From Halomonadaceae bacterium T82-2 (GTDB lineage: Bacteria > Pseudomonadota > Gammaproteobacteria > Pseudomonadales > Halomonadaceae), in contig LSBP01000006.1 of assembly GCA_001577635.1 (NCBI GenBank), positions 1-64,000 on the forward strand: 64,000 nt of DNA, read 5' to 3'. Shown one piece after another: positions 39,823-41,672 of the stretch (position 1 is its first letter; the number at the start of each line of letters is the position of its first letter). A program made the position numbers and the translations under genes. A model generated the notes under the pieces. That model did no database searches. It was given only the letters and a program-made list of their open reading frames with translations, and had not been told where the DNA came from.

Positions 39823-40914
39823 TCAGACGTTGAAGCGGAAGTGGATGACATCGCCATCGGCGACGATGTAGTCCTTGCCTTCCAGGCGCCACTTGCCGGC
39901 TTCCTTGGCCCCGGACTCGCCACCCAGCGTGACGAAGTCGTCGTAGGCGACCACTTCGGCGCGGATGAAGCCCTTCTCGAAGTCGGTGTGGATGACGCCA
40001 GCGGCCTGCGGGGCGGTGGCGCCGACCTTGACCGTCCAGGCGCGGACTTCCTTGACGCCCGCGGTGAAGTAGGTCTGCAGGCCGAGAAGGTGGTAGCCGG
40101 CACGAATCACCCGGTCGAGTCCCGGCTCCTCCATGCCCATCTCGTCGAGGAACATCGCCCGCTCCTCGTCCTCCAGCTCGGCGATTTCGGCCTCCAGCTG
40201 GTTGCAGACCGGCACCACCACGGCGCCTTCCTCGGCGGCGATCTCGTGAACCGTGTCGAGGTGCGGGTTGTTCTCGAAGCCGTCCTCGTTGACGTTGGCG
40301 ATGTACATGGTTGGCTTGAGCGTCAGGAAGCCGTAGCTCTTGAGCTGGCGCTTCTCGTCATCGGACAGGCCGACGCTGCGCAGCGGCAGCCCCTCGGCCA
40401 GGTGCGGCTGGATGCGCTCGAGAATCGCCTTGGTGGCGATCGCTTCCTTGTCGCCGCCCTTGACCACTCGGGTCAGGCGCTGGATGGCGCGCTCGACGCT
40501 GTCCAGATCGGCCAGCGCCAGCTCCAGGTTGATGGTCTCGATATCGGCCCGCGGGTCGACCTGGTTGGCCACGTGAATGACGTTGTCGTTGTCGAAGCAG
40601 CGCACCACATGGGCGATGGCGTCGGTCTCGCGGATGTTGGCGAGGAACTGGTTGCCCAAGCCTTCACCCTTGGAGGCGCCCGCCACCAGACCGGCGATGT
40701 CGACGAATTCCATGGTGGTGGGCACGACCTTCTCGGGCTTGACGATCTCGGCGAGCTTGTCGAGCCGCGGATCGGGCATCGGCACGATGCCGGTGTTGGG
40801 CTCGATGGTGCAGAAGGGGAAGTTCTCGGCGTCGATGCCGGACTTGGTGAGCGCATTGAAGAGCGTGGACTTGCCGACGTTGGGCAAGCCGACGATGCCG
40901 CAGTTGAATCCCAT
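39823..40914 (-). CDS. ychF: Ribosome-binding ATPase YchF
   Basis: About 363 aa Obg-family P-loop protein that prefers ATP and binds ribosomes, also linked to stress responses. G1 [14 protein letters not shown] (about 8-21), switch region [15 protein letters not shown]3 [18 protein letters not shown]4-like ANVNEDG, and the C-terminal TGS domain ending [14 protein letters not shown]. Downstream of pth, separated by 173 nt that include a 7-bp tandem repeat. Confidence 0.97.
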
Positions 40915-40996
40915 GGGTGTTCCTGACGATGAGAAGAGCGAGTGAACGAATGGCGGGCATTCTACGGGACACCGCGGGCGGGGGCCATACTCTCAG

Positions 40997-41094
40997 CTAC
41001 GGGCTACGGGCTACGGGCTACGGGCTACGGGCTACGGGCTACGGGCTACGGGGTACGGGCTACGGGCTACGGGCTACGGGCTACGGGCTACGGC
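40997..41094. repeat. 14-copy 7-bp tandem repeat (CTACGGG) between pth and ychF
   Basis: Unit CTACGGG repeated without gaps: eight exact copies, one variant (GTACGGG at 41053-41059), four exact copies, and a last copy ending GGC. The final copy begins with the complement of the pth stop codon (41088-41090). The plus strand shows regular G3-N4 spacing, so G-quadruplexes are possible on the template strand of pth-ychF transcription. The exactness suggests a young, changeable array. Confidence 0.95.
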
Positions 41095-41672
41095 GTGAAA
41101 CTGTGCAGCCGGTTCATGGCTCGGGCCCAGTCGCCGGCGAGGGCGTCGGGCAGGGTGGCGAGGCATTCGTCGAGGGCGGCGTCGATGGCCTGACGCTCGG
41201 CCTTGCCGGGGCGACCCAGCACGTAGTTGGTGACCTGCCTGGCGTTGCCGGGGTGGCCGATGCCGATGCGCAGGCGGTGGAAGTCCCTGCAGTTGCCCAG
41301 CGCGCTGATGGTGTCGCGCAGGCCGTTGTGGCCGCCGTGACCGCCGCCGGTCTTGTAGCGGGCGGTGCCGGGGGCGATGTCGAGCTCGTCGTGGGCGACG
41401 AGCAGTTCATCGGGGGAGAGCTTGAAGAACTGGCAGAGCGCGGCGACAGCGGCGCCGCTGCGATTCATGAAGGTGGTCGGGTTGAGCAGATGCACATCCC
41501 GACCGGCGAAGTGGACCTTGGCGTACTGGCCGAGGAACTTCTTCTCCATGCGCAGCGGCGCGTGGCTGTCGCGCGCGATGGCTTCCACCAGCCAGGCGCC
41601 CGCATTGTGACGGGTGTCGGCGTACTCGGGGCCGGGATTGCCCAGGCCGATGATCGCTTTCACTGGACTCAT
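41088..41672 (-). CDS. pth: Peptidyl-tRNA hydrolase Pth
   Basis: About 194 aa. It releases tRNA from peptidyl-tRNA that drops off ribosomes. Catalytic His in GNPGPEYADTRHNAG (about 22), the conserved NPTTFMNRSGAAV, and DELDIAPGTARYKTGGGHGGHNGL with the active Asp. Lies 42 nt after rplY on the same strand. The TAG stop codon falls in the last copy of the tandem repeat. Confidence 0.97.
   Translation of the reverse strand: MSPVKAIIGLGNPGPEYADTRHNAGAWLVEAIARDSHAPLRMEKKFLGQYAKVHFAGRDVHLLNPTTFMNRSGAAVAALCQFFKLSPDELLVAHDELDIAPGTARYKTGGGHGGHNGLRDTISALGNCRDFHRLRIGIGHPGNARQVTNYVLGRPGKAERQAIDAALDECLATLPDALAGDWARAMNRLHSFTP

Follow-up and report, generated by a model that had tools for sequence, protein, structure and literature searches.

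A GGGCTAC array between pth and ychF of Halomonadaceae bacterium T82-2 is one member of a dispersed intergenic heptanucleotide repeat family

The array between pth and ychF

The stretch analyzed here (the window) comprises 64,000 nucleotides of Halomonadaceae bacterium T82-2 (contig LSBP01000006.1, positions 1 to 64,000, forward strand). Its minus strand carries rplY/ctc, encoding ribosomal protein L25 (41715..42365; TIGR00731, NF004130), then pth, encoding aminoacyl-tRNA hydrolase (41088..41672; ORF, TIGR00447, 196.7 bits), and then ychF, the next gene downstream (39823..40914; ORF, TIGR00092, 542.1 bits). The identities of pth and ychF were taken from curated models, with both matches above cut-off.

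Between these two genes, TRF found an array of GGGCTAC units with the RGCTAC strand on plus (40996..41093, 98 bp; period 7, 14.0 copies, 97% matches, score 189, chance expectation 0), the strongest tandem repeat of the window (runners-up, scores 94 and 74). Read in register, CAGCTAC at 40994 comes first; from 41001 to 41091 the GGGCTAC unit stands 12 times in perfect form and once as the variant GGGGTAC (41050..41056), and GGCGTGA comes next. Three consecutive units with at most two mismatches were matched 12 times in the window and 0 times in 100 dinucleotide shuffles, tandem 7-nt units thus being far above chance, as in heptanucleotide simple sequence repeats of the LSSR5-11 type. The array enters pth by a few bases, and the TAG stop codon (41088..41090, minus strand) falls within its last full unit; its 3′ edge, not its 5′ edge, adjoins the stop, and it is antisense to pth. 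A preliminary description, made from these letters, had seen a near-perfect 14-copy, 7-bp array at the pth stop codon, lying on the template strand of both genes and bearing GGG runs every 7 nt; all three observations are borne out, since pth and ychF are both on the minus strand and the G runs are regularly spaced (G4Hunter, 1.04; G3N1-7 motifs start at 11 overlapping positions). The C-rich strand is the one present in the pth-ychF transcript.

A putative −10 box of ychF (TAGAAT, 40959..40964, minus strand) was recognized by eye between the array and the gene, and a GTARRAT box occupies the space between the pth stop and ychF in 14/14 genomes of the genus (by eye). The array lies upstream of the putative −10 and −35 elements, and its edge is some 9 bp past where the −35 element would be expected. 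Judging from this arrangement, ychF probably has its own promoter, the spacing of which would not be altered by array length because the box lies between the array and the gene. Phase-variable repeats lie within an ORF or between promoter elements; this one is located at the pth stop and behind it, and the promoter is itself a prediction. A stricter consensus scan of the spacer returned no standard promoter and no terminator, and an Rfam search of 351 bases (E up to 1) returned no known RNA family. The spacer RNA folded worse than its shuffles (z, +3.4), and the two DNA strands of the array gave z scores of +2.5 and +0.4, with programs that did not cover quadruplexes; the unit is thus not the palindromic stem-loop of a REP/BIME element. 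No inverted partner track was seen beside the array.

The pth-ychF spacer was compared in 14 genomes of the genus, including the window's own (G000). The sister species G002, whose Pth is 98% identical, has 13 perfect units at this site, lacks the variant unit, and matches the window in all 90 bases on the ychF side. An assembly error, the caveat raised in the preliminary description, is therefore an unlikely source of the array. One unit fewer and no variant unit in G002 fit slippage, and copy number differs between close relatives as in LSSR5-11 repeats; the earlier suggestion that copy number slips is thus upheld as a difference of 14 versus 13 units between species, in two genomes only. 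The other 12/14 members are without this array, and their spacers measure 83 to 426 bp. In four of these spacers (L176, L177, L178, and L187), pth is followed by degenerate AAGCTNN heptamers, with an inverted set ahead of the ychF promoter region; in the sister genomes L176 and L178 a GTAGCY precedes the heptamers behind pth. Two spacers, L182 (G007) and L179 (G012), instead repeat a 12-bp unit, TTCAAGGGCTAG, 8 and 3 times; this unit copies the last pth codons plus the stop, a tandem duplication across the stop codon that leaves the protein unchanged.

Two further arrays of the unit exist in the window's genome: contig C2 carries an imperfect array about 21 units long, and C46 a short array with three units. 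The C46 site is occupied by eight GAGCTAC units in G006 and by degenerate heptamers in G008 and G011; in G008 the C2 site carries GAGCTAC units in place of the GGGCTAC of the window's genome. Comparison of G000 with G002 at two sites showed replaced spacers, and no clean insertion was found. G006 also has 15 reverse-transcriptase domain matches (C1 and C2), several with identical scores and perhaps a multiplied group II intron, versus 0 to 1 in the other 13 genus members.

Spread, strand, and placement of the RRGCTAC family

The array at pth-ychF is one member of a dispersed intergenic heptanucleotide repeat family and is not special to this site. The pattern CTACGNGCTACGNGCTACG was present in 9/58 genomes searched (the window's own included), and its reverse in 0/58. 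A public scan with one genome per species gave at least 116 matching stretches; among the matches listed by name (80), most were from Halomonas, Salinicola, Chromohalobacter, Alcanivorax, Shewanella, Paraglaciecola, Thalassotalea, and other Gammaproteobacteria, and the matches listed also included Streptomyces, Actinomadura, and metagenome-assembled genomes of other phyla, the last of which may be misbinned. A viral collection queried with four units gave one matching stretch. With a looser pattern (RGCT every 7 bases), 43 of 369 gammaproteobacterial genomes were matched versus 27 for the reversed control (own count); heptamer arrays in general are common in Gammaproteobacteria, and at this level RGCT units are favored only modestly over other heptamers.

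Local GC skew was read from up to 20 kb fetched round the arrays of 13 genomes, giving 114 arrays after same-strand arrays less than 150 bp apart were merged. G423 to G429 were fetched in full and G018 at one of its at least 11 listed places; G431, G432, G433, G434, G435, G016, and G008/G430 (apparently one genome, with the same coordinates) were left out, as were L235 and L236, which held no array. The pattern behind the list holding G423 to G435, G016, and G018 misses arrays with a C seven bases upstream. Contigs end or begin at or near arrays in G425 (C14, C15, and C18), G431 (C14 and C22), and G435 (C10 and C50); short-read assemblies probably break at arrays, so array counts and lengths may be too low.

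The family units are GAGCTAC, GGGCTAC, and AAGCTAC (RRGCTAC), joined in Alcanivorax by CTACAAG, and other heptamers often form arrays nearby. In 94/114 arrays the unit was mainly GAGCTAC, without GGG runs, and 20 were GGG arrays; a G tract in every unit is therefore a property of the window array and not of the family. The median length was 7 copies among arrays of at least three perfect units, the only ones sought, a floor that applies when this value is set against the four-unit preference of GGGNATC-type repeats.

The RGCTAC strand was the G-rich, leading strand in 95/114 arrays, and in 82/98 when one array was kept per homologous group (p = 7e−12). Among the matches listed in the public scan, a set that overlaps these 114 arrays, 88/116 loci agreed with the skew (p = 2e−8). 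The assembly of G006 is almost a single contig, with dnaA at 3.05 Mb and sign changes of the skew at that point and between 1.4 and 1.62 Mb; 17/18 of its arrays had the RGCTAC strand on the leading strand, and 10/18 matched the majority coding strand, which excludes gene direction as the cause of the bias in that genome. Where skew and majority coding strand conflicted, arrays sided with the skew in 34/44 cases. Contigs bearing dnaA in G014 (C22, two arrays) and G018 (C3, two arrays) supplied, among the matches listed, four more arrays on the leading strand. The window array also obeys the rule, lying on plus in a window of skew +0.038 (flanks, +0.034 and +0.052), though pth and ychF both run the opposite way. 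Exceptions were Paraglaciecola (5/11), Chromohalobacter (4/6), and the window's genome (2/3, the C2 array breaking the rule).

Mainly-GAG arrays (78/94) and GGG arrays (17/20) both follow the strand rule, which is thus explained neither by G content nor by folding. CTACAAG-type arrays of Alcanivorax agreed in 12/12 cases, several of them adjoining GAG arrays and so not independent; G4Hunter gave 0 for GAGCTAC and −0.14 for CTACAAG, and both are oriented as in GGGCTAC arrays. Single heptamers outside arrays had no bias (166/311 overall; 44/86 intergenic). Base composition is excluded as the cause, GAGCTAC having equal G and C and single copies being unbiased, and since only arrays are biased, the bias must enter as units multiply in tandem or as arrays are retained, and not at seeding. 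Other heptamer units had no common rule (23/39, the 12 of CTACAAG type included, followed it when oriented by likeness to CTACGAG), and at the same loci their G-richer strand lay on the G-rich strand in only 7/35 cases.

Genes round the arrays were called with a simple codon-usage script. Sixty arrays lay between codirectional genes, 39 between convergent genes, and 9 between divergent genes; 4 at contig ends and 2 inside called genes (one being the window array, by a spurious call) were kept out of the edge statistics. The 5′ edge was within 15 bp of a codirectional stop codon in 43/64 arrays, versus 5.6 expected from random placement in the same gaps (maximum, 13 in 2,000 trials), and the 3′ edge adjoined a stop in 3/75 versus 7.1 expected, in a set that does not include the window array. 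Among arrays between codirectional genes, 36/60 were antisense to both. Inverted degenerate heptamer tracks downstream reached 19/28 matches to (CTCGTAG)4 in 29/91 spacers (those shorter than 60 bp or containing N left out) and in 0/91 shuffled ones; same-direction tracks reached this threshold in 15/91. Degenerate RGCT tracks lay behind 26/1,060 genes with open 3′ space, versus 12/1,135 upstream regions.

Sequences beyond the arrays were compared by eye. Many Alcanivorax arrays (such as those at L257, L267, L268, L288, L290, L299, and L312 to L314) have a shared sequence, GATTGGAT ... AAAAGTTCCC, on their 3′ side, and the REP-like stem GTAGGAGC often comes after this shared linker, as if all were one composite repeat. 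In Shewanella, REP-like TGTAGGAGCGGCTTTAGCCGCGAAT lies up to about 45 bases beyond the array at six of the 16 loci shown (L271, L273, L279, L280, L283, and L285), and on the other side of the array at L272.

Known heptamer repeats and competing explanations

Long simple sequence repeats with units of 5 to 11 nt are reportedly a genome-wide class, described by Mrazek and colleagues in 2007, in which heptanucleotides are said to be the commonest category in most genomes and for which slippage is said to have been proposed; the RRGCTAC arrays resemble this class in their heptanucleotide unit and in their probable growth by slippage. REP/BIME elements, the partners of RAYT transposases, lie behind genes and carry a GTAG motif, and the arrays are like them in both respects and in their REP neighbors in Shewanella and Alcanivorax (by eye); unlike them, the arrays are not palindromic stem-loops and show no clear tie to the presence of a Y1 transposase in the 58 genomes compared.

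The closest description is that of Rehm et al. (2015; PMC4692102), whose available sections report GGGNATC repeats of 2 to 26 copies in Xanthomonas and Nostoc, with such G-rich heptamers found in Xanthomonas and not in other gammaproteobacteria. As set out there, the shared features are 7-nt intergenic units that sit on the sense strand a short way past stop codons and are rare between divergent genes (here, 43/64 and 9/114), a frequent inverted neighbor, and lengths that vary among related species. Our unit is RRGCTAC and not GGGNATC, most arrays lack GGG runs, and they lie mostly on the leading strand, whereas those sections report no leading or lagging preference for GGGNATC. MacGregor (2015; PMC4679880), in the parts available, describes TAACTGA direct repeats of Beggiatoaceae, Cyanobacteria, and Bacteroidetes; these, too, are intergenic heptamers with a patchy distribution across phyla that may overlap stop codons, but the unit differs, its copies number 2 to 6 in the genome of Maribeggiatoa and as many as 43 elsewhere, and in Maribeggiatoa it mostly lies just ahead of start codons. 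A term search of its text gave neither "leading strand" nor "lagging"; the paper cites Mrazek 2007 for heptamer abundance and for polymerase slippage as the explanation. Heptamer-derived satellites (PMC6749651) are likewise bacterial heptamer repeats, thought in the text available to arise as local duplication errors, with a different unit (GATAGRA of Chloroflexus); a term search of that text gave no mention of Halomonas, Alcanivorax, or strand. Among the open-licence papers listed, none was found on the RRGCTAC unit or its strand bias, and the repeat letters matched two plant papers only. The RRGCTAC arrays are therefore bacterial heptamer simple sequence repeats of a known class, set apart by their unit, their GGG-less members, and their strand rule; the leading-strand bias looks new relative to published heptamers.

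The preliminary description had proposed that the GGG-bearing template strand folds into G-quadruplexes that stall RNA polymerase between pth and ychF, with slippage varying ychF output between cells. The G3N4 spacing and G4Hunter score, the unit missing from G002, and the folding of similar GGGNATC heptamers in vitro by circular dichroism (PMC4692102, as available) speak for it, and the motif could fold in this way. The family does not need folding, however: its commoner GAGCTAC arrays have no GGG runs and the same strand bias, which excludes a quadruplex as the shared property while leaving one possible for the window array. The −10-like box of ychF, conserved in all 14 genomes, comes after the array, 12 of these genomes have no such array here, and Rehm et al., in the sections available, could identify no regulatory role for their own repeats. 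The proposed switch is thus not supported, and we rate it the least probable of all the explanations weighed here. Very doubtful also, if slightly less so, is an element acting at the 3′ ends of genes, in which heptamer tracks and inverted partners behind stop codons would fold into stem-loops or serve as binding sites for a protein that terminates transcription or shields the mRNA. The excess of inverted tracks over shuffled spacers, the frequency of arrays between convergent relative to divergent genes, and the RGCT tracks behind genes would suit such a role, but same-direction tracks occur downstream too, the window array has no visible partner, its spacer RNA folds worse than shuffles and yields no terminator or Rfam match, and more than half of the arrays in codirectional gaps are antisense to both genes.

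A mobile or copied element is a somewhat better candidate and still an improbable one. It would enter new sites behind stop codons strand-specifically, on the single-stranded lagging-strand template, as RAYT/REP-like or reverse-transcriptase-made DNA. One unit at unrelated sites in distant taxa, the strand bias, the hugging of stop codons, and the linker and REP-like sequence that follow Alcanivorax arrays (by eye) all point in this direction. Neither candidate mover was associated with arrays, though both families are broad: the Y1 transposase (PF01797) was present in 5/9 array-bearing versus 30/49 array-free genomes, and the reverse transcriptase (PF00078) in 4/9 versus 18/49, with none in the window's genome. 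Single heptamers are unbiased, the viral collection gave one matching stretch, and the two sites compared with G002 look like replaced spacers and not insertions.

Proposed growth of the arrays and its meaning

The explanation we favor, with a probability of roughly 0.7, is an RRGCTAC repeat grown by slippage, whose growth or retention depends on the direction of the replication fork, and which selection keeps out of genes and promoters, with no dedicated switch at pth-ychF. Direction-dependent slippage or loss is known for triplet repeats in E. coli. As far as the sequences compared here can tell, the window array most likely grew in place, by replication slippage, from a heptamer already present behind pth; the degenerate heptamers at pth in L176 and L178, and the heptamers of relatives at the C46 and C2 sites, are consistent with such a seed. 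Long arrays would then persist chiefly at sites where RGCTAC stands on the leading, G-skewed strand, which is the template of lagging-strand synthesis, and purifying selection would exclude them from genes and promoters. Direction-dependent slippage or loss at the fork would be the simplest reading of biased arrays beside unbiased single copies, and would also account for the degenerate partner track in the other direction. Under this explanation the arrays would for the most part have no function in genes and no dedicated switching role is expected at pth-ychF, where the array may have a small effect on read-through from pth.

Several observations sit uneasily with growth by slippage. A simple growth-rate model predicts shorter arrays in the wrong orientation, but these are no shorter (median, 7 versus 7 copies; p = 0.28), and the model of direction-dependent slippage is therefore incomplete. 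Local slippage does not readily account for a single RRGCTAC unit shared by unrelated genomes and phyla; Alcanivorax arrays often precede a shared linker and REP-like sequence, and some may travel with an element. The placement of the window array, with its 3′ edge at a stop codon, is also unusual for the family. A broader reading, which we regard as tentative and rather unlikely, is that long RRGCTAC arrays develop, in about five cases out of six, solely where the heptamer is on the leading strand (Halomonadaceae, Alcanivorax, and Shewanella), and that they are made and homogenized either by a strand-specific feature of the replisome or by a process dedicated to copying single strands; stop-codon placement and the eroded inverted partner would in that case be what is left of a common 3′-end element of which the leading-strand half alone is renewed.

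The wider question is why heptamers dominate the repeats of many bacteria and whether G-quadruplexes explain that. Units with and without GGG runs that share a common place and direction argue against folding as the reason, and a strong leading-strand bias in arrays, with none in single copies, points to the replication fork.
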